64,000 bases of DNA from Novosphingobium piscinae (GTDB lineage Bacteria; Pseudomonadota; Alphaproteobacteria; Sphingomonadales; Sphingomonadaceae). Of the stretch, positions 24,311 through 33,359 are shown one piece after another (within the stretch, counting starts at the first letter, position 1; each line of letters starts with the position of its first letter). The stretch covers positions 62,001-126,000 of the forward strand of contig NZ_JACLAX010000009.1 of NCBI RefSeq assembly GCF_014230355.1, read 5' to 3'. A model generated the notes under the pieces. The model ran no database searches and was not told the origin of the DNA. It was given only the letters and a program-made list of their open reading frames with translations. A program made the position numbers and the translations under genes.

Positions 24311-25543
24311 GTGGCCGAGATCCTGTTCATCGCTCACCGGATCCCGTTTCCGCCCGACCGCGGCGACAAGATCCGCTCGCACCACATCCTGCGCCGGCTG
24401 GCCGCCCTCGCGCCGGTCCATGTCGCGTGTTTCGCCGACAATCCGGCCGACCTCGCCCATGAGCCGGCGCTCGCCGCGATGGCCGCCAGCCATTGCCTCG
24501 TGGCGCGGTCGCGGCCGCTGCCGCTGGCCGGGTTGGCGGCGCTGGGGCAGGGCCGACCGGTCAGCCTGACCGCCTTTGCCGACGCCCGCCTGCGCGCCTA
24601 TGTCGCGCATATCGTGGCGACCCGGCCGATCGCAGCGATCTACGTCTTTTCCGGGCAGATGGGCCAATATGTCCCCCCCGCATTCGCCGGGCGCGTGGTG
24701 ATCGATCTGGTCGACGTGGATTCGCTGAAGTTCGGGGCCTATGCCGCCGCGGCGACCGGGCCGCGGCGCTGGCTCTACGCCCGCGAGGAGCGGCTGCTGC
24801 GCGCCGAGGAGGCACGGCTGGTGGCCCGCGCGGATCGCACGCTGCTGGTCAGTCCCGAGGAGCAGGCGCTGCTTGGCCCGCGCCTTCCGGCCGGGCTCGC
24901 CGGCAAGGTCGGCGCAATCGGCAACGGGATCGATACGACGCTTTACGATCCGGACCGGGTCACCCCGGCCGCTGCGCTGGCGGAGCAGCCTGGCCCGGCC
25001 CTCATCTTCACCGGACAGATGGACTATCCGCCCAATGTCGCCGCGGTCGTGCGTGGGGCCCGCCGGATCATGCCGGCGATCCGCGCGGTGCACCCCGAGG
25101 CGACCTTCGAGATCGTCGGGCGCCAGCCCGCCGCCGCGGTGCGCGCGCTCGACGGGATCAATGGGTGCCGGGTGCGCGGCGCGGTGGACGATATCCGGCC
25201 CTGGCTCCGCGGCGCAGATCTGGCGCTGGTTCCGCTCGAAATCGCCCGCGGCATCCAGAACAAGGTGCTCGAAGCCATGGCCATGGCCCTGCCGGTGGTC
25301 GCCAGTACCGGGGCTGCCACCGGCATCCCGGTGCGACCGGGCGAGGAACTGGCCGTGGCCGACAGCGATGCCGCGATGATCGCAGCGACGCTGGCCTTGC
25401 TGGCCGATCGGGCCGCCGCCCGCGCGATGGGCCTGGCCGCGCGGCGCTGCGTGGTGGCAACGCACGGCTGGGACGCGGTGCTCGCGCCGCTGGCGGCAAC
25501 CCTCGGCCTGGCCGGTGGGGAGGGGCTGCCCGATGCCGCCTGA
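24311..25543 (+). CDS. XrtA system glycosyltransferase (TIGR03087 type)
   Basis: A 410-residue GT-B glycosyltransferase related to GT4 enzymes. The N-terminus is AEILFIAHRIPFPPDRGDKIRS with the conserved HRIPFPPDRGDK signature of the exosortase-locus family. The C-terminal domain has ALIFTGQMDYPPNVAAV and an E-x7-E region around LVPLEIARGIQNKVLEAMAMA. It should add a sugar to a lipid-linked or growing glycan at the inner face of the membrane. The GTG start at 24311 follows femAB by 4 bp, and its end overlaps the exosortase start by 11 bp. Confidence 0.9.
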   Translation: MAEILFIAHRIPFPPDRGDKIRSHHILRRLAALAPVHVACFADNPADLAHEPALAAMAASHCLVARSRPLPLAGLAALGQGRPVSLTAFADARLRAYVAHIVATRPIAAIYVFSGQMGQYVPPAFAGRVVIDLVDVDSLKFGAYAAAATGPRRWLYAREERLLRAEEARLVARADRTLLVSPEEQALLGPRLPAGLAGKVGAIGNGIDTTLYDPDRVTPAAALAEQPGPALIFTGQMDYPPNVAAVVRGARRIMPAIRAVHPEATFEIVGRQPAAAVRALDGINGCRVRGAVDDIRPWLRGADLALVPLEIARGIQNKVLEAMAMALPVVASTGAATGIPVRPGEELAVADSDAAMIAATLALLADRAAARAMGLAARRCVVATHGWDAVLAPLAATLGLAGGEGLPDAA

Positions 25544-27095
25544 GGCCCTGCCGCCCGAACTGGTCCTCCAGCCGGTCCGCACCGGCTTGCCGCAGGCCTG
25601 GCGCCGGGCGCTGGTGCTGCTGGCTGCCACGCTCGCCGCGCTGCTCGTCGCCTATGCCTCCGACTGGGCGGCCATGGCCGGGCAGTGGTGGAATGCCTCG
25701 ACCTACAACCACATCCTGCTGGTTCCCCCGATCCTCGCCTGGCTGGTGCTGCAACGCTGGCCCGAGCTGCAGCGGCTGGCCCCGAGCGGCTGGTGGCCGG
25801 GCCTGATCCTCTTCGCGCTGGCCCAGCTGGTCTGGGTGGTGGGAGCCTTCGCTGGCTTCTCCCTGCTGCGCCAGGCCGGCGCCGTGGCAATGGTCGGGGC
25901 GGCCGTGCTGGCCCTGCTCGGCCCCCGGGTCGGCGCAGGACTGACCTTCCCGCTGGCCTACATGGTTTTTCTGGTGCCCTTCGGTGACGAGCTGGTGCCG
26001 CTGCTGCAGATGGTCACCGCGGCGTTGACGATCGCGCTGGTCCATCTGTCGGGGATTCCCGCCGCGATCGACGGCGTGTTCATCCAGACGCCGGCCGGCC
26101 TGTTCGAAGTGGCCGAGGCCTGCTCCGGCGTGAAGTTCCTGATCGCGATGATCGCGCTCGGCGTGCTGGTCGGGCACGTCTGCTTCCGCCAGTGGCGGCG
26201 GCGGGCAGCCTTCCTGGCAGCCTGCATCGTTGTTCCGGTCCTTGCCAACGGGGTGCGTGCCTGGGGCACGGTCTATGTCGCGCAGTTCGTCGGCGCGGAA
26301 CGCGCCGGGGGCATCGACCACCTGATCTACGGCTGGGTGTTCTTCGGTGTGGTCATCGCGCTGGTCCTTGCCCTCGGCTGGCGCTTCTTCGACCGCGCCC
26401 CGGGCGACCCGCTGCTCGATGCCGACCGCCTGCTGGCGTCGCCTGCGTTGGTCCGGCTCGCGGCGCTGCGGCTCGGCGATGGCGCCTTGATCGCTGGTCT
26501 GGTCGCCCTGGTCGTCGCGGGGCAGGGCTGGGCTTTCGCTGCAGACCGGCTCGAGGCCAGCCTGCCGCGGCAGATCCACCTTCCGGAGGTACCCGGGTGG
26601 CACCGCGCCGACTATCGTCCCGCACTGTGGTGGCAGCCGCGGGCCACGGGCGCCGATCATCGCCTGCTCGGCCGCTTTGCCGATGGCCAGGGTAACGCGG
26701 TTGACGTCTTCGTCGCGCTCTACGCCGGCCAGTCGGAGGGCCGTGAGGCGGGTGGTTTCGGCGAGGGCGCGCTGGTTCCCGACAGTGGCTGGGCCTGGCA
26801 GGGCCATGGGCCAGCACTGCCGGACGCCCGCAGCGAGCGGCTGCTCGGACGGGGCGAGGTGGGCCGGCTGGCCATCACGTACTACCGCACTGGCCCCCTG
26901 CTGACCGGCAGCAACGGGCGGCTGAAGCTGGCGAACATCGCCGATCGCCTCCGACTGCGCGCGCGCCCGACGATGACCCTGATCCTGTCGGCCGAGGACC
27001 GCTCCGGCGCACCGGCAACCCGGCAGGTCACCGCCTTCACCCGGGCGATCGGTCCGGTCGGGCCGTGGATGGACCGCATCGCGGCCGGACGGTAG
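25533..27095 (+). CDS. xrtA: Exosortase A fused to EpsI domain
   Basis: A 520-residue multi-pass membrane protease/transpeptidase that recognises PEP-CTERM sorting tails. The catalytic triad is visible: Cys197 in EVAEACSGVKFL, Arg242 in LANGVRAWG and His263 in GGIDHLIYGW. Membrane helices fill about residues 25-290. The C-terminal about 200 residues form a periplasmic EpsI-like domain (DUF3485), with LPRQIHLPEVPGW and LAITYYRTGPLLTGSNGRLKLANI. The ATG at 25533 is preceded by a GGGGAGGGG-like ribosome site inside the glycosyltransferase gene. No PEP-CTERM substrate was seen in this window. Confidence 0.93.
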   Translation: MPPEALPPELVLQPVRTGLPQAWRRALVLLAATLAALLVAYASDWAAMAGQWWNASTYNHILLVPPILAWLVLQRWPELQRLAPSGWWPGLILFALAQLVWVVGAFAGFSLLRQAGAVAMVGAAVLALLGPRVGAGLTFPLAYMVFLVPFGDELVPLLQMVTAALTIALVHLSGIPAAIDGVFIQTPAGLFEVAEACSGVKFLIAMIALGVLVGHVCFRQWRRRAAFLAACIVVPVLANGVRAWGTVYVAQFVGAERAGGIDHLIYGWVFFGVVIALVLALGWRFFDRAPGDPLLDADRLLASPALVRLAALRLGDGALIAGLVALVVAGQGWAFAADRLEASLPRQIHLPEVPGWHRADYRPALWWQPRATGADHRLLGRFADGQGNAVDVFVALYAGQSEGREAGGFGEGALVPDSGWAWQGHGPALPDARSERLLGRGEVGRLAITYYRTGPLLTGSNGRLKLANIADRLRLRARPTMTLILSAEDRSGAPATRQVTAFTRAIGPVGPWMDRIAAGR

Positions 27096-27105
27096 GACAG
27101 GCACC

Positions 27106-29001
27106 ATGTGCGGCATTGCTGGTCTGTTCCATCTTCACACCCCCAAGCCGGTCGATCCGGCGCGGATCGAGGCGATGTGCACGGCGATGGTCCATCGCGG
27201 TCCCGACGGCGGCGGGGTTTGGGTCGGGCCGGGCGTGGGGCTGGGTCATCGCCGCCTGTCGATCATTGACGTGGCCGGCTCGCCCCAGCCGATGGCCTCG
27301 CCCGATGGCCGGGCCGTGCTGGTGTTCAACGGCGAGATTTACAACTACCGCGAACTGCGCGCCGAACTGCGCGCGCTCGGCGCCACGTTCCGCACCGACG
27401 GGGACAGCGAGGTGATCCTGGCAGCATGGCAGCAGTGGGGCGAGGGATGCCTGGCCCGGCTGCACGGAATGTTTGCCTTCGCGCTCTACGACCTCGCTGA
27501 GCGGACGCTGTTCCTTGCCCGCGACCGGCTCGGGGTCAAACCGCTCTACTATGCGCCGCTGAGTGACGGCAGCCTGGCCTTCGCAAGCGAGCTCAAGGGC
27601 TTGCTGGCCCATCCTCTGCTCCGGCGTGAGATCGATCCGCAGGCGGTCGAGGACTATCTGGCCTGGGGCTATGTGCCCGATCACCGTTGCATCCTGTCCG
27701 GTGTGCACAAGCTGCCCGCCGGGCATGCGCTGCTGCTGCGCGGCAATGGCCAGCTCCCGGCACCGAGCCAGTGGTGGGACGTGTCCTTCGCTGATCGCCA
27801 TGCCGGCAGGCCGGCCGATCTCGAGGCCGAACTGGTCCACCTGCTGCGCCAGGCGGTGACCTCGCGCATGGTGGCCGACGTGCCGCTGGGAGCCTTCCTC
27901 TCGGGCGGGGTCGACAGCTCGAGCGTGGTCGCGCTCATGGCTGAGGCCAGCTCCGGCCCGGTCAAGACCTGTTCGATCGGGTTCGACGTGGGCGAACTCG
28001 ACGAAACCGGCTATGCCGCCCGGGTCGCCCGGCAGTTCGCGACCGATCATCGCACCCGCACCGTATCTCCCGACGATTTCGGCGCGGTCGACACGCTGGC
28101 GGCGATGTTCGACGAACCCTTTGCCGACGCCTCGGCCTTGCCCACCTGGCGGGTCTGCCAGCTGGCGCGGGAGAGCGTGACTGTGGCCCTGTCGGGCGAC
28201 GGGGCCGACGAGGCCTTCGCCGGCTATCGGCGCCAGCGCTTCCATTACCACGAGGACCGCCTGCGCCGGCTGGTGCCGCAGGGCGCGCGCGCGGCGCTGT
28301 TCGGATCGCTCGGCGCGGTCTACCCCAAAGCCGACTGGGCGCCGCGGCCGCTGCGTGCCAAGACGACCTTGCTGGCACTCGCGGAAGCGGGCGAGCAGGC
28401 CTATGCCCGCGCACTGGCGATCAACGATCCAGCTACGCGCGATAGCCTTTACACCGCTGCCTTTCGCCGAGAACTGGGTGACTATCGCGCCGAGCAGCCG
28501 CTGGTCGCGCTGATGCAGGCGGCGCCAGCCCGGTCGGGCCTGGACCGCGCCCAATATGCCGATCTGCGCTTCTGGCTGCCGGGCGACATCCTGACCAAGG
28601 TCGACCGGACCAGCATGGCAGTCAGCCTCGAGGCGCGCGAGCCGCTGCTCGACCATCGCCTGATCGAGTTTGCCGCCCGCCTGCCTGAAGGCCTGCGGAT
28701 CAAGCGCGGGCAGGGCAAGTGGCTGGTGAAGACGGCGATGCGCCGTTACCTGCCGGACGAGATCCTGTTCCGTCCGAAACAGGGCTTTGTCACCCCGACC
28801 GCACAGTGGTTCCGTGGACCGCTGGCCGCAACTGCCCGCTCGATCGCCACCAGCGCCCCATTGGCCCGCAGCGGCTGGTTCGATACGACCCGTCTAGGGG
28901 CAATCGCGGAGGCGCACATCGCCGGACGGAGCGATCACGGGCGCCTGCTGTGGCAGTTGGTGATGCTGGATCGCTCGCTCGGTCGACTGGGAATGTCCTG
29001 A
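27106..29001 (+). CDS. XrtA/PEP-CTERM system amidotransferase (AsnB-like)
   Basis: A 631-residue class II glutamine amidotransferase fused to an asparagine-synthetase domain (TIGR03108 by memory). The nucleophile is Cys2 (MCGIAGLFHLH), and the glutaminase domain has VHRGPDGGGVW and FNGEIYNYRELR. The synthetase PP-loop is AFLSGGVDSSSVVAL, and VALSGDGADEAFAGY is the second nucleotide motif. It probably amidates a sugar or an aminoacyl group in the exosortase-linked exopolysaccharide and is not housekeeping AsnB. It is the last gene of the XrtA operon, starting 10 bp after xrtA. Confidence 0.92.
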   Translation: MCGIAGLFHLHTPKPVDPARIEAMCTAMVHRGPDGGGVWVGPGVGLGHRRLSIIDVAGSPQPMASPDGRAVLVFNGEIYNYRELRAELRALGATFRTDGDSEVILAAWQQWGEGCLARLHGMFAFALYDLAERTLFLARDRLGVKPLYYAPLSDGSLAFASELKGLLAHPLLRREIDPQAVEDYLAWGYVPDHRCILSGVHKLPAGHALLLRGNGQLPAPSQWWDVSFADRHAGRPADLEAELVHLLRQAVTSRMVADVPLGAFLSGGVDSSSVVALMAEASSGPVKTCSIGFDVGELDETGYAARVARQFATDHRTRTVSPDDFGAVDTLAAMFDEPFADASALPTWRVCQLARESVTVALSGDGADEAFAGYRRQRFHYHEDRLRRLVPQGARAALFGSLGAVYPKADWAPRPLRAKTTLLALAEAGEQAYARALAINDPATRDSLYTAAFRRELGDYRAEQPLVALMQAAPARSGLDRAQYADLRFWLPGDILTKVDRTSMAVSLEAREPLLDHRLIEFAARLPEGLRIKRGQGKWLVKTAMRRYLPDEILFRPKQGFVTPTAQWFRGPLAATARSIATSAPLARSGWFDTTRLGAIAEAHIAGRSDHGRLLWQLVMLDRSLGRLGMS

Positions 29002-29124: not shown

Positions 29125-31377
29125 ATGCGGGCGTATCTCAAGCAACCTCTGGTGATCTCGACGCTGGTCGCGCTGCTGTGCGGCCTGTTGTCGCTCGCCC
29201 GCCCGCTGGACCAGGGGTATTGGAATACACGTTATCGTTTTGGTCAGAAGCCCGCGCCGCAGTCGGTCGTGCTGATCAACATGGATGCCGAGATCAGCGG
29301 CTCCGACCGCCAGACCGCCCGCGTGCTCCAAGCCGTGGCGGCTGCGCAGCCCGCGCAGGTTTACCTCGACCGCAAGACGAATGCCGCCTCGCCCGAACTG
29401 CAGAACGCCATCGACCGACTGGGTAACCGCCTCCGGCTGGTCGTTCGCTATGCCAAGCAGGACACGTTCGAAGAGGCCTACATTACCCTCCCGCCCCCAG
29501 CGATCGTGCCGAGATCGCGGATCGTGGCCTCGGGCTGGATCACCAACTTCTGGCGTTATGGCGTGTCGACCGCGGCCACAGCACGGGTCGGCGGCGTCAC
29601 CTATCCGATGCTGGGATCGGCCCTGGCCGGGCGGCTAGGCGAGGCGGACGAAGAGATCCGCCCCGATTTTGCGGTCGACCCGCGCACCGTCCAGCAGATC
29701 GCCGCCGAGCGGTTGCTGGCCAGCCGGAGTGCCGGAGCGGCGCTGCGCGGCAAATCGGTCATCCTCAAGGAGCCGCGATCGGGCCCCGGCGTTCTCGTCG
29801 GCTACTTCTCGCATGGCCGCATCGATCCTGTCTATCTCGACATCGCCGCGGGCGAGGCCCTCAAGAACGGCGATACGCACAGCATCGACTGGCTCCCGCT
29901 GATTGCGGCGTTCGCCGCGATCATGTTCGCCGTCAAACGGATCGCCGCCCGCCGGCTCCGCCGGGCGGCCTACGTCGTCGCGGGTCTGGGCCTGCTGGTG
30001 GGACCGGCCCTGCTCGATCACATTGGCATCACCAGCAATCCCTCGGCCAGCCTCGTCGGTCTGACCTGTTTTGTCGCCATCAAGCTTTGGTCCAAGTGGC
30101 AGACGCAGGTGCTGCAAACGAGCCGCTCGGGCCTGCCGAACTTCGTCGCGCTCACCGAACAGCCCTTGCCCGGCCAGCACGACGTCATCATCGCCATCGT
30201 CGGTCGGTATGAAGAGATCATGGCCACGCTGCCGGGCGACCTGCATGGCGAATTCGCCCGGCAGATCGCCCGCCGTCTGGCGGTTGGGTGCGGTGCCCGG
30301 CACATCTACCACGGCGAGGGCGGTCTGTTCGCGTGGATCGAGCCGACCCGCTCGCTCGAGCAGCACATCGACAACCTCGAGGGCCTGCGCAGCCTGTTCG
30401 CGGCGCCGCTGCTGGTCGGCAAGCATGTGTTCGATACCAATGTGCACTTCGGGCTTGAGCGGAACCACGAACTGGACGCGGTGACCCGCGTAAACACCGC
30501 GGTGGCCAGCGCGACCGAGGCGCTCAAACATGGCCGTACCGTCGAGATGTTCGAGGCGAAGCGGCTCGCCAACGCCGCCTGGGAGCTTTCGCTGCTGGCG
30601 CGGATCGACGAGGGCATGCGCAACGGCGACATCTGGCTCGCCTACCAGCCACAGTGGGACTACCATGAGGCCCGGCTCAGCGGAGCCGAGGCGCTGATCC
30701 GCTGGAACGATCCGGTTCGGGGTCCGATCCGGCCCGACGAGTTCATCCTCCAGGCCGAGCAGGCCGGCCGGATCGACGCCCTGACATACTGGGTGCTGGA
30801 TCAGGCGATCAGTGCGGCCGAGCGGTTCAACGCCTTCGGGCCGCGGTTCCAGATCAGCATCAACTTGTCGGCCCAGTTGGTTGATAAGCCTTCGCTGATT
30901 AGCTCGGTGGCCGATATCGTCCGCCGCCGCGGGATCGATTGCCGGCTACTCACGATCGAGGTGACCGAGACTGCCGGCATGTGCAACCGTCCGGCCGCGA
31001 TTCAGAACCTGATGAAGCTGCGGGCGATGGGCTTCCGCTTGTCGATCGACGATTTCGGGACCGGCGAGGCCTCACTATCCTATCTTGCCGAGCTGCCCAG
31101 CGACGAGCTGAAGCTGGACCGGCGCTTTGTCTCCAAGATCGTCCATCACGAGCGTGAGCGCCATATCGTGGCCAGTACGATCAATCTCGCTCACGCGCTC
31201 AAGCAGACCGTGGTCGCCGAAGGAATCGAGGATCTCTCGACCTTCGAGCTGTTGCGCCAGCTGGGCTGCGATGTTGGACAGGGATACCATATCTCGCGCC
31301 CGGAGACTCTGGATCAGCTGATTGCGCGCTACGCGGCGCTCACCAAACAGGGCTCCACCAAGCTTAAGTCTTGTTAA
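29125..31377 (+). CDS. CHASE2-degenerate GGDEF-EAL c-di-GMP phosphodiesterase
   Basis: 750 residues. An N-terminal membrane helix (LVISTLVALLCGLLSLA) is followed by an extracytoplasmic CHASE2-like sensor region (about 30-245), then two or three membrane helices (about 250-330). The following domain has a GGDEF-like outline, but the signature is replaced by HGEGGLFAW, so no cyclase activity is expected. The EAL domain (about 490-740) keeps GAEALIRW, EVTETA, IDDFGTGEASLSYL, LKLDRRF and VVAEGIED, so it should hydrolyse c-di-GMP. Lying 123 bp after the exosortase operon, it may tune polysaccharide output, which is inference. Its ligand is unknown. Confidence 0.85.
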   Translation: MRAYLKQPLVISTLVALLCGLLSLARPLDQGYWNTRYRFGQKPAPQSVVLINMDAEISGSDRQTARVLQAVAAAQPAQVYLDRKTNAASPELQNAIDRLGNRLRLVVRYAKQDTFEEAYITLPPPAIVPRSRIVASGWITNFWRYGVSTAATARVGGVTYPMLGSALAGRLGEADEEIRPDFAVDPRTVQQIAAERLLASRSAGAALRGKSVILKEPRSGPGVLVGYFSHGRIDPVYLDIAAGEALKNGDTHSIDWLPLIAAFAAIMFAVKRIAARRLRRAAYVVAGLGLLVGPALLDHIGITSNPSASLVGLTCFVAIKLWSKWQTQVLQTSRSGLPNFVALTEQPLPGQHDVIIAIVGRYEEIMATLPGDLHGEFARQIARRLAVGCGARHIYHGEGGLFAWIEPTRSLEQHIDNLEGLRSLFAAPLLVGKHVFDTNVHFGLERNHELDAVTRVNTAVASATEALKHGRTVEMFEAKRLANAAWELSLLARIDEGMRNGDIWLAYQPQWDYHEARLSGAEALIRWNDPVRGPIRPDEFILQAEQAGRIDALTYWVLDQAISAAERFNAFGPRFQISINLSAQLVDKPSLISSVADIVRRRGIDCRLLTIEVTETAGMCNRPAAIQNLMKLRAMGFRLSIDDFGTGEASLSYLAELPSDELKLDRRFVSKIVHHERERHIVASTINLAHALKQTVVAEGIEDLSTFELLRQLGCDVGQGYHISRPETLDQLIARYAALTKQGSTKLKSC

Positions 31378-31399
31378 CCATACTCCTTAGTGTTAACCA
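31371..31399 (+). promoter_or_regulatory. Possible promoter with two CtrA-like half-sites
   Basis: TTAACCAT occurs at 31374-31381 and again at 31393-31400, 19 bp apart. This octamer equals the half-site reported for the alphaproteobacterial cell-cycle regulator CtrA. TTGTTA (31371) and TAACCA (31394) with a 17-bp spacer also form a plausible -35/-10 pair, which would start a transcript near 31406. The element overlaps the end of the EAL gene. Confidence 0.45.
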
Positions 31400-31429
31400 T
31401 GCTCATCCGTTTCGATGGAGGCATGGAAC

Positions 31430-31465
31430 ATGTGGGACTTCTGGAAGTGGTTTCTCGGAGAATAA
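31430..31465 (+). CDS. Putative 11-residue Trp-rich peptide MWDFWKWFLGE
   Basis: A 12-codon ORF with a perfect GGAGG (31417-31421) 8 bp before its ATG. The product contains three Trp, two Phe and one Leu in 11 residues. It is too short for homology. It lies inside an apparent short transcription unit: promoter-like sites with two TTAACCAT boxes upstream, then a hairpin at 31482-31502 and an intrinsic terminator at 31581-31612. It could be a leader peptide, a membrane-active microprotein or part of a dual-function small RNA. No amino-acid biosynthesis gene follows. Existence of the peptide is a prediction. Confidence 0.4.
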   Translation: MWDFWKWFLGE

Positions 31466-31481
31466 TCCGCTGATTTCCGCG

Positions 31482-31502
31482 AGTTGGGGGCAATTCCCAA
31501 CT
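31482..31502 (+). other. RNA hairpin downstream of the micro-ORF
   Basis: AGTTGGG and CCCAACT form a perfect 7-bp stem around a 7-nt loop (GGCAATT). With the terminator at 31581 it suggests a structured small RNA of about 200 nt. Confidence 0.4.
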
Positions 31503-31580
31503 GGAAGTCTCGGGTTGTTCGTCGAACACGATGCGAGTCGCGGTTTCCTTCGGGGGCTGCGTATGAAGCGAATACATTAA

Positions 31581-31612
31581 CCGCTCCGGCCAATGCCGGG
31601 GCGGTTTGCTTT
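31581..31612 (+). terminator. Intrinsic terminator of the micro-ORF unit
   Basis: CCGCTCCGGC and GCCGGGGCGG form a 10-bp stem (one G-T pair) with loop CAAT, followed by TTTGCTTTT. The T-tract lies on the plus strand only, so it ends the 31406-31612 unit or read-through from the EAL gene, not zapE. Confidence 0.75.
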
Positions 31613-31654
31613 TGTCCGGACGGGGCCTGTTCCTGTCTGTAACCCGGACGGTAC

Positions 31655-31686
31655 GGACCATGGCCGGTCCAGACTATGGCCGGTCT
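31655..31686. repeat. Two adjacent 16-bp dyad units
   Basis: GGACCATGGCCGGTCC (31655-31670) is followed directly by AGACTATGGCCGGTCT (31671-31686). Both have complementary ends around a shared ATGGCC core, and a weaker third unit follows to 31702. They lie between a terminator and the 3' end of zapE. The function is unknown. It could be a protein site or part of the zapE 3' end. Confidence 0.45.
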
Positions 31687-31761
31687 GGCGCCGGTCCGGT
31701 CTGATCGTGTGTCGTTCCGACGCTGCCGTTGATGCGATGGCTCGGCGCGGTCGGACCCGCC

Positions 31762-32898
31762 TCAGCTCTCGCCATGACCGAGCGCCATGTATTCGGCGCT
31801 CTGCATTTCCATCAGGCGGCTGACCGTGCGGTCGAACTCGAACCGGCCGTTGTCGTCCGCTGCGCCGGCGCGGGCATAGAGCGCTTCCGGCATGACCGCC
31901 GCCGTGGCGATCAGCTTGACCTTGTTCTCGTAGAGTGCGTCGATCAACGTGACGAAGCGGGCAGTCTCGTTGCGCAGCTCAGCCCCGAGCTGCGGGATGC
32001 CGACGATCACCACGGTATGGTAGTGCCGCGCCACGGCCAGATAGTCACTGGCGCCCCGCGCCTCGCCGCACAGCCGCTTGAAGCTGAACACCGCCACGCC
32101 CTTGAGGCTTTTGGGCACGAACAGCGTGCGTCCGCCGCCGACCGAGAGTTCGGCTGAGGGCACGTTCGCGCTGTCCTCGGGGGGATAGTCGGTCAGGCGG
32201 AAGAAGGCCTCGCGCGCCTGGGCGGTCGCTGCGGCGTTGGCCGGGGCGTGCCAGGTGGCCATGCCACCGAGCCGGTCGAGCCGGTAGTCGACCGGGCCGT
32301 TGAGCGGCAGCACGTCGAGCTCGCGGCCGATCAGGTCAATGAACGGGAGAAAGTGCTCACGGTTCAGGCCATCCTTGTAGAGGTCGTCCGGCACCCGGTT
32401 CGAGGTTGTCACCACGGTCACGCCCTCGGTCCCGATCAGCGCGGTGAACAGGCGGCTCATGATCATGGCATCGGCGCTGTTGTTCACCACCATCTCGTCG
32501 AAGGCGAGCACCTTAAGGTCGCGGGCGAGAGCGGCGGCGACCGGCGGGATCGGGTCGCCGCTTTCCTTCTTGCGCTCTTCGCGCAGCAGCGCGTGGACCT
32601 CGAGCATGAAGGCGTGGAAGTGGATGCGCCGCTTCTCGGCAAGGTCGAGTGTGTCATGGAACAGGTCCATCAGCATCGACTTGCCGCGCCCGACGCCGCC
32701 CCACATGTAGATCCCGCGGGGACGCGGCGGCGGCTTGCGACCGAGCAGGCGGCCGACCAGTCCGCTGGCAGCGGGCGGCGCGGTTTCGAGCGCGTCCTGC
32801 AGCTGGGCAAGCCGCTCGGCCGCCGCCGCTTGCTCGGGATCGGGTCGCAGTTCGCCGGCCGTGACCAGCGCATGGTAGCGCGCGAGCAGTCCGCTCAT
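31762..32898 (-). CDS. zapE: Cell division protein ZapE (AFG1-like ATPase)
   Basis: A 378-residue AFG1/ZapE family P-loop ATPase. Walker A is WGGVGRGKSMLMD (about 66-78), Walker B is KVLAFDEMVVNN, and YTTSN-like sensor residues appear as VVTTSNRVPDDLYKDGLNR. The C-terminal FSFKRLCGEARGASDYLAVA is family-typical. In E. coli ZapE acts on FtsZ rings under stress. In other bacteria AFG1 proteins are linked to membrane-protein quality control. The gene overlaps the thioesterase gene by 4 bp and shares a minus-strand operon with sdhB. Confidence 0.92.
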   Translation of the reverse strand: MSGLLARYHALVTAGELRPDPEQAAAAERLAQLQDALETAPPAASGLVGRLLGRKPPPRPRGIYMWGGVGRGKSMLMDLFHDTLDLAEKRRIHFHAFMLEVHALLREERKKESGDPIPPVAAALARDLKVLAFDEMVVNNSADAMIMSRLFTALIGTEGVTVVTTSNRVPDDLYKDGLNREHFLPFIDLIGRELDVLPLNGPVDYRLDRLGGMATWHAPANAAATAQAREAFFRLTDYPPEDSANVPSAELSVGGGRTLFVPKSLKGVAVFSFKRLCGEARGASDYLAVARHYHTVVIVGIPQLGAELRNETARFVTLIDALYENKVKLIATAAVMPEALYARAGAADDNGRFEFDRTVSRLMEMQSAEYMALGHGES

Positions 32899-33359
32899 GC
32901 CGCTAGGCCCAGTTTGCGGACGGTACTCTGGAACGAGGCGACGAGAGTGCCATCCTGCTCGATCACGCCGCGCAGGAACGCCAGCCGGCCGGTTTCGCGC
33001 AGCAGCTCGACCACGGCATCGAGCGGACGGTCGAGCTTTCCCGGTGCGATGAACTGGAGGGTGAGGTCGAGCGTCACGGCGGCACTGGGATCACGGCCGG
33101 TGAGCACCCGCAGCGCGGCGAACAGGCTCATGTCGCTGAAACCGAGCAGGGCGCCCCCGTGCACATGGCCCATCGCATTGGCGAGGTGCCGCTGCGGCTC
33201 GATCCGGACCCGCGCCACCGTCTCGCTCTCGCGGCGGGCGAGCGTCGGACCGAGCACGCTGGCGTTGAACCCGCCGGCATCGGGAGCGGCAAAACTCAGC
33301 CAGCCCGGGTGATCCGGGCTGGGCTCGACACGGAATGACCGGGGTACACCGTCGGCCAC
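32895..33359 (-). CDS. PaaI-type hotdog thioesterase
   Basis: A 154-residue hotdog-fold acyl-CoA thioesterase. The signature is NAMGHVHGGALLGFSDMSLFAAL, where the HGG and the following Asp are the active-site elements of the PaaI/YbgC-like 4HBT group, and DLTLQFIAPGKLDRPLDAVVEL is the central strand pair. The start codon is GTG (complement of 33357-33359), one base after the sdhB stop, and the gene overlaps zapE by 4 bp. The substrate is unknown, probably an aryl- or acyl-CoA. Its coupling to sdhB and zapE says little about function. Confidence 0.85.
   Translation of the reverse strand: MADGVPRSFRVEPSPDHPGWLSFAAPDAGGFNASVLGPTLARRESETVARVRIEPQRHLANAMGHVHGGALLGFSDMSLFAALRVLTGRDPSAAVTLDLTLQFIAPGKLDRPLDAVVELLRETGRLAFLRGVIEQDGTLVASFQSTVRKLGLAA

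Follow-up and report, generated by a model that had tools for sequence, protein, structure and literature searches.

Fold-back control of read-through RNA is familiar from the transposase genes of IS10 and IS50 and from gene e of phage T4. There the ribosome site is hidden in the read-through RNA and freed in the RNA that starts at the native promoter. A similar device is proposed here for a tiny open reading frame (ORF) in a stretch of 64,000 nucleotides from Novosphingobium piscinae (contig NZ_JACLAX010000009.1, positions 62,001 to 126,000; "the window" in what follows). This microORF encodes the tryptophan-rich peptide MWDFWKWFLGE. Its ATG at 31430 lies 52 nt behind the stop codon (31375-31377), on the same strand, of a gene for a putative phosphodiesterase of cyclic di-GMP (c-di-GMP) with a CHASE2-like and an EAL domain. 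Unlike in the classical examples, the stem would shield a microprotein gene of the chromosome against read-through from the partner gene ahead of it. No paper was found by the phrase "fold-back control".

The products of the ycgZ-ymgABC operon of Escherichia coli are small. BluF, a degenerate EAL protein, shares a pathway with them (PMC3509220), as is proposed here for the enzyme and its peptide. BluF, however, acts via the repressor BluR and has an inactive EAL domain, whereas our enzyme has intact EAL positions and its peptide is far shorter. In peTrpL, Sinorhizobium meliloti has a very short alphaproteobacterial leader-type peptide with a function of its own (PMC7298713). It is the leader peptide of a transcription attenuator; the microORF instead trails an enzyme gene, has its own promoter and is followed by no biosynthetic gene. 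The DUF1127 proteins of Agrobacterium, less than 50 residues long, act on an alphaproteobacterial signalling protein, the sensor kinase PhoR (PMC12501420). They form a named family, whereas the members of the microprotein family that were tried match no model of Pfam (two members, E 0.001) or NCBIfam (six members, E 1); peptides so short, of course, seldom reach thresholds. CtrA-controlled promoters, finally, share with the microgene a TTAACC/TTAACCAT box at -35 (PMC6180460, PMC11264516). In contrast to full CtrA sites, its leader holds half-sites only and no TTAA-N7-TTAA. The microprotein family is not described in the listed titles and abstract openings on sphingomonad CHASE2/EAL proteins, Novosphingobium CtrA or small RNA, small proteins and c-di-GMP phosphodiesterases, a survey that left subscription literature mostly outside.

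Our preferred reading is a tentative one, with a little less than an even chance of being right: the peptide would be a microprotein partner of the CHASE2/EAL phosphodiesterase, timed separately and guarded against read-through, and the short Novosphingobium form of a family that extends through the Sphingomonadaceae. As far as sequence comparison can demonstrate such things, the linkage to the enzyme, the selection on the peptide, the conserved promoter and the covarying stem are demonstrated. ORF, promoter and stem go beyond chance, as relatives show all three at the corresponding position. The 11-residue frame thus looks like a real, overlooked gene. Probably the microprotein works together with the upstream enzyme; what it does there we infer.

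The 252-base region of the microgene diverges too fast for a nucleotide search, which among 61 genomes retrieved the own genome only. Relatives were therefore sought through the EAL protein as anchor and through a covariance model of the leader. Among 99 genomes drawn from the genus, 41 contain a close match to the enzyme (at least 42% identity, E < 1e-150), and the microORF accompanies it in all 41, recognised by the model in 40 and by eye in G013. The convergent neighbour gene differs in G013, so the linkage is to the enzyme. Of the 58 genomes without the enzyme, a single one has a leader model match, the fragmented assembly G199. The enzyme contig of G036 ends about 150 bp past the gene and the model match is on a different contig; the microORF of G014 and G098 is displaced downstream by a few hundred bases. 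The covariance model, R1, was built from 30 leaders, the window's included, which as a member of this training set scores 50.8 bits. R1 matches 72 of 195 Novosphingobium genomes, 70 of them once only, and the microORF was read at its matches, L158, L163, L165 and L178 included. In the common layout behind the enzyme, TTGTTAACC is followed by an extended -10; next comes an imperfect inverted repeat that ends in a Shine-Dalgarno sequence, and then an ATG with its frame of 7-20 codons. Of the 195 genomes, just 2 contain a match to a degenerate version of the window peptide, the own one and G061. L188, the second enzyme-like paralogue of the own genome, is without microORF.

Two further observations on the genus may be added. 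In L169 (G194, 1201-2091) a second promoter-stem-microORF unit stands in tandem, 829 bp after the first, apparently with a fragment of a ZapE-type gene between the two; the peptides are MFKYIFGGGS and MFKIIWHYLMN. Exact 21-base matches to the ORF start in viral contigs were dismissed as chance: five of the six stretches share an unrelated 31-residue frame, one has another, and no GGAG-type leader is present.

The association extends beyond the genus. In the Sphingopyxis group (L044-L074, L076-L082 and L118; 34 loci titled Sphingopyxis and 5 more broadly) a short frame of the MGWFWRFLGGGGTDSGGGQA type follows the enzyme at 39 of 39 loci; the same rule finds 4 on the reverse strand. From the 80 named loci, L083-L096, L098-L117 and L119 stay outside this count, and L075 and L097 are without a readable gene end. 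In the wider family the enzyme was found at E 1e-80 or better in 115 of 249 genomes, at 132 places. We read 88 of these: 28 loci (L191-L218), the 40 next in rank and 20 picked further down, together 84 genomes and 40 genera. A fixed ORF rule, laid down after examples had been seen, recognises a microORF at 62 of the 88 loci. The reverse strand yields 2, and 20 shuffles yield 1.05 on average and 4 at most. Reading adds seven loci and L229, which makes 70. At least one microORF locus is present in 34 of the 40 genera, 35 with the separately read L183.

A second covariance model, R2, was applied to the family: at the threshold used, about 20 chance matches are expected in 397 family genomes, and 10 were obtained, 4 of them weak and outside Novosphingobium. 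Given this expectation, the weak matches count only through what lies there. Three are found directly behind an EAL gene and encode longer peptides such as MTGHVRGTSHQPVRWDIWDWLLGGGQWR. The fourth, L184, opens a frame of about 100 residues with no EAL gene ahead and was discarded as chance. The DNA pattern for W-D-W-[LF]-[LF]-G-G occurs at 9 places in 149 family genomes, all 9 within 240 nt of the enzyme match in the same genome, while the reversed control pattern does not occur in them at all; in this sample the motif thus is the companion of one enzyme. At 18 EAL loci from other families of the order no microORF was seen; most of these match the query only in the GGDEF-EAL part.

The peptides are tryptophan-rich and 7-41 residues long, in Novosphingobium 7-20. 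Their core across genera reads G-[FI]-W-[DE]-W-[LI]-[FLM]-G-G-G, and 64 of 69 peptides fit the alignment rule; the second tryptophan position is occupied in 53 of the 64, the first by construction. The window peptide agrees with the [FI]-W-x-W-[LIF]-[FLM] core through its F-W-K-W-F-L. Novosphingobium peptides are rich in Leu, Trp, Phe and Ile, with Trp in 61 of 68; examples are MWNFWKWFLGDPA (N. aerophilum, L040), MIWHYLFR, MLWHWLFK, MWKWLFF and MFEILRWIFT. By reading, the aromatic core is steadier than the N-terminus. Many family members have a charged or Gly-rich frame instead of a membrane-spanning stretch. Seven residues suffice in L030 (MWKWLFF), L141 (MLRWLFN) and L159 (MWRYFFQ), which to our knowledge are among the shortest conserved coding genes.

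The codons change as under protein-level selection. The ratio of nonsynonymous to synonymous polymorphism (pN/pS) is 0.45 for 35 distinct Sphingopyxis-group frames, compared with 1.30 (35 sequences) and 1.07 (the 24 without stops) for the two other frames of the same DNA, and 0.16 for nine Novosphingobium frames of one subtype. The difference between frames, together with the core shared across genera, speaks for selection on the peptide. The original prediction had proposed an 11-residue Trp-rich peptide with a perfect GGAGG ahead of it and had itself counted a lack of conservation of the ORF and boxes in relatives among the findings that would speak against it. On this count the comparison with relatives does not refute it. 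The linkage to the EAL phosphodiesterase, the overlap of the first box with the enzyme's stop codon, the stem over the ribosome site and the WDWL core of the whole family were no part of that prediction.

The promoter was analysed in 68 distinct Novosphingobium leaders, index 0 being the first T of TTAACC. TTGTTAAC is found in all 68, an invariance that is partly built in, as TTGTTAA belonged to the search rule. TA at indices 20-21, the first two -10 positions, did not belong to it and is likewise present in 68 of 68; TGnTA stands at offset 17 in 55. We thus predict a promoter composed of TTGTTA, a spacer of 17 nt and TAnnnn with an extended -10, starting at index 32, i.e., 31406. A strict sigma-70 scan finds no promoter at this place, where a -35/-10 pair had been proposed earlier; the alignment of relatives does give a conserved pair, TTGTTA, 17 nt and TAACCA with the extended -10 TG.

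Indices 3-6 (ACCA) are kept in 61-68 of the 68 leaders. Sigma-70 makes no demand on these bases, so their retention points to a transcription factor; with a box of this kind at -35, the obvious candidate is CtrA. An ungapped TTAACCAT variant is reported for it and activating sites lie near -35 (PMC6180460, PMC11264516); in Sphingomonas melonis the CtrA phosphorelay controls motility and biofilm, as cited in PMC9437464. The two exact TTAACCAT boxes, 19 bp apart, on which CtrA control had been proposed are indeed there and are the sole exact matches in the 64 kb on both strands (0.17 expected; two are reached in 2 of 100 shuffles of the window). Only the first of them generalises: TTAACC at -35 is kept beyond the need of sigma-70, whereas the second box is not general and TAACC at -10 is present in only part of the relatives. 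By reading, 31360-31430 contains half-sites at -35 and -10 and no full TTAA-N7-TTAA. TTAACC-N11-TGnTA occurs once in the own genome, at the microgene, as does the reversed control pattern; it thus marks no wide regulon there. Distant microORF leaders have a TTAACC, TAACC or TTGACC box nearby in four of five cases (L204, L212, L216 and L229; not L206). In the other loci a second box rule is satisfied 38 times in 69, compared with 1 in 88 reverse windows.

The Sphingopyxis group shows a peculiarity of its own. At 39 of 39 loci the stretch from enzyme gene to microORF contains a GANTC site, against 13.9 in shuffles; in the 12 printed loci it is GACTC beside a TTTACC/TTAACC box. Elsewhere there is no excess (21 of 70 other-genus loci, 20.8 in shuffles). 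A methylation-linked timing of the microgene is possible. In most of eight close Novosphingobium loci (L120-L127), a block near GATTCGTGGTTAAC is kept about 130 nt past the microORF while its surroundings vary; its reverse complement carries a TTAACC box.

Folded singly, all of the first 30 leaders form a hairpin, with the Shine-Dalgarno sequence in the 3' arm in nearly all (not in L041, only partly in L023). The stem register shifts among leaders, and in some loci the stems are nested, the inner hairpin being variable. Covariation was assessed in alignment A3 of 72 model-aligned leaders, which was fitted to the structure model and thereby favours the stem: 7 of 10 pairs are changed on both sides (a count reached by 63 of 500 shuffles), and both-side changes appear in 89 cells (0 of 500). 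The covariation score of 0.328 compares with 0.208 in shuffles, of which 0 of 500 reach it, and with 0.08-0.18 for slid partners. With its native upstream sequence the Shine-Dalgarno sequence is more closed than with a shuffled one in 58 of 68 leaders from Novosphingobium, 34 of 39 from the Sphingopyxis group and 55 of 68 from elsewhere. Its mean unpaired probability is 0.09-0.11 if the RNA starts at index 24 or before, 0.20 at index 30 and 0.32 at index 32, the predicted start.

From these elements a mechanism can be sketched. The microgene would have a sigma-70-like promoter to itself, whose CtrA-type box at -35 may confer cell-cycle or surface-related timing. In most Novosphingobium loci only about 10 bases separate the enzyme stop codon from the box, so that the enzyme RNA should run through the microORF. 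In this long RNA the stem would hide the Shine-Dalgarno sequence, and little peptide would be made. The RNA from the microgene's promoter would start inside the 5' arm, lose part of the stem and be translated better. The aromatic peptide may then act at the membrane or directly on the enzyme, tune its activity or assembly and thereby adjust c-di-GMP.

The enzyme matches Pfam EAL with E 9.4e-65, and in 32 aligned sequences E522 A523 L524, N580, E612, D642 D643, K663, E699 and Q719 are invariant, positions that we take to have catalytic roles. The match of the window enzyme to Pfam CHASE2 is weak (E 0.035, 14.1 bits, cut-off 26.3); the label rests on the relatives: five of six aligned proteins match at E up to 1, the best at 5e-17. 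One N-terminal hydrophobic segment is followed by the CHASE2-like domain, further hydrophobic helices, a degenerate GGDEF region and the EAL domain. The structure model (mean pLDDT 87), which served solely for domain placement, matches GGDEF-EAL structures such as MorA and, in its EAL part, BifA; the GGDEF region was assigned by this match, not by Pfam. The enzyme is probably an active, membrane-bound c-di-GMP phosphodiesterase. In 156 plasmid records the Sphingopyxis enzyme was matched over at least 80% of its length twice (Qipengyuania, 28.6% identity).

The elements of the window locus are compiled in the table.

Table. Features of the microgene and its neighbours, in positions of the window
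Feature	Positions	Strand	Remark
c-di-GMP phosphodiesterase gene (putative), 750 aa	29125-31377	+	CHASE2-like / degenerate GGDEF / EAL; adjoins the microORF upstream
-35 element TTGTTA (predicted)	31371-31376	+	overlaps the first TTAACCAT box and the EAL stop codon 31375-31377
First TTAACCAT box	31374-31381	+	CtrA-type half-site containing the phosphodiesterase stop codon
Extended -10 element TGTTAACCA (predicted)	31391-31399, hexamer TAACCA 31394-31399	+	overlaps the second TTAACCAT box
Second TTAACCAT box	31393-31400	+	exact match
Stem-loop (predicted)	31398-31425	+	pairs the Shine-Dalgarno sequence with the region round the predicted +1; folding, and covariation on 72 leaders
Predicted transcription start (+1)	31406	+	deduced from the -10 position; within the 5' half of the stem
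Shine-Dalgarno GGAGG	31417-31421	+	8 nt upstream of ATG 31430; GGAG invariant in 30 aligned leaders
MicroORF MWDFWKWFLGE	31430-31465	+	11 codons + stop; kept in relatives
7-bp hairpin AGTTGGG/CCCAACT	31482-31502	+	window sequence, 3' part
Intrinsic-terminator-like stem-loop with T run, 12 pairs	31579-31606	+	window sequence
AFG1/ZapE-type ATPase gene	31762-32898	opposite strand, convergent	downstream neighbour

The 3' part of the microgene has fared unevenly. The 7-bp hairpin is present as described. The strong terminator was recovered as a 12-pair stem, but with one found and a shuffle mean of 1.3 it is not significant alone; in relatives a strict terminator rule is satisfied 3' of the ORF at 29 of 72 loci in Novosphingobium, 38 of 39 in the Sphingopyxis group and 56 of 70 elsewhere, compared with 1, 0 and 0 in shuffled controls. 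That no sizeable gene follows on the + strand holds for the listed stretch, where the AFG1/ZapE-type gene converges instead. A trp leader, which the original prediction had already doubted, was set aside, as no biosynthetic gene lies downstream. Its suggestion of a dual-function small RNA is weakened on the RNA side, because eight close relatives show mostly poor conservation of the RNA past the ORF; on the side of the peptide, the core is kept. Directly upstream of the enzyme gene (25515-29001), the window contains genes for an exosortase (EpsH type, with DUF3485) and an asparagine-synthase-type amidotransferase, an arrangement known from exosortase/exopolysaccharide clusters.

Several points weigh against the guarded-partner reading. 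Peptides of seven residues leave little room for a specific surface. Of the 88 enzyme loci 18 are without a recognised microORF; five of these are second copies whose other copy has one (L237, L239, L263, L270 and L274), which leaves 12 if L193 is set aside. Two further family loci are divided, L299 with and L300 without microORF. A TTAACC/TAAACC-like box was recognised in only 41 of 70 other loci. The ORF rule and alignment A3 have the built-in advantages mentioned above, and plain MAFFT plus RNAalifold on 30 leaders gave no common structure, which stands against a rigid one. At the predicted +1 the Shine-Dalgarno sequence opens only to background level (0.30 with shuffled upstream sequence). 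A rise of at least 0.2 between index -40 and 32 is seen in just 38 of 68 loci. From the predicted +1, 12 of the 68 remain under 0.1 unpaired, and the window locus opens only partly, from 0.08 to 0.35. If transcription began a few nucleotides earlier, the stem would act on the native RNA as an ordinary switch. As to L193 (G339), a transposase-like frame stands directly behind the enzyme gene, and no microORF was recognised.

Such a conventional on/off switch, responding to temperature, a ligand or a small RNA in a transcript that begins upstream of the stem, is unlikely but has to be taken seriously. The support for the stem across genera, the extra inner hairpin of some loci and the 12 closed leaders suit it. 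The conserved -10, with its TA in every leader, however, places the predicted +1 inside the 5' arm; the loop lacks the invariance of a ligand pocket; and no Rfam family reaches its cut-off in 30000-33000, the best being sX6 with 17.3 bits instead of 40, and this only at the terminator. ROSE-type thermometers, CsrA-type control and a Trp attenuator were considered and not adopted; the GGA that a CsrA site wants in the loop is not kept in all leaders, though no search aimed at CsrA was made. The inverted repeat might also be a DNA operator at the promoter, with the pairing of the ribosome site as a by-product. It overlaps the predicted start, and C-to-T changes leading to G-U pairs do not clearly exceed what transitions alone would give; against it stand the nested stems of some loci, with their variable inner hairpin, and the presence of the Shine-Dalgarno sequence in the 3' arm of nearly all 30 folded leaders. 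We rate it as quite improbable. Still less can be said for a type I toxin under antisense RNA control. The peptide is short, aromatic and hydrophobic and its ribosome site is hidden, but the single match in 70 of the 72 genomes having any, the tie to one gene and the many charged or Gly-rich members without membrane-spanning stretch make this very unlikely.

A more exotic role would be that of an exported peptide signal, sensed by the CHASE2 domain of the adjoining enzyme. ComS/ComR, SHP/Rgg and Rap/Phr are parallels. Genus-spanning peptides of down to seven residues would then serve a CHASE2/EAL phosphodiesterase of Gram-negative sphingomonads as its dedicated ligand or pheromone, with CtrA-type timing and stem protection, feeding a pheromone circuit into c-di-GMP. 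A short peptide gene with its own promoter, closely linked to an enzyme that resembles a receptor and has a CHASE2-like domain at its N-terminus, invites this idea, as does the steadier aromatic core. Forms of 7-20 residues are, however, too short for a usual signal peptide, and the core varies little between genera, whereas pheromone specificity types mostly vary. We doubt both the signal and the dedicated circuit, to the same considerable degree. Scarcely credible is a non-coding small RNA or Trp attenuator with an incidental peptide: the terminator-like stem past the ORF and the Trp codons recall one, but pN/pS lies below the off-frame controls, no operon follows on the strand, and the 3' part is the poorly conserved one. 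Toxin, attenuator and peptide-free small RNA thus fit less well, and a membrane-interface peptide that adjusts the enzyme appears to be the most economical account.

Genes of 7-20 codons usually escape annotation, and this one is found beside a signalling enzyme in at least 34 genera. A specific microprotein-enzyme pair of this kind could give the c-di-GMP phosphodiesterases a new class of partner. It also suggests a way in which a tiny downstream ORF may be silenced in read-through RNA and yet be translated from its own promoter.

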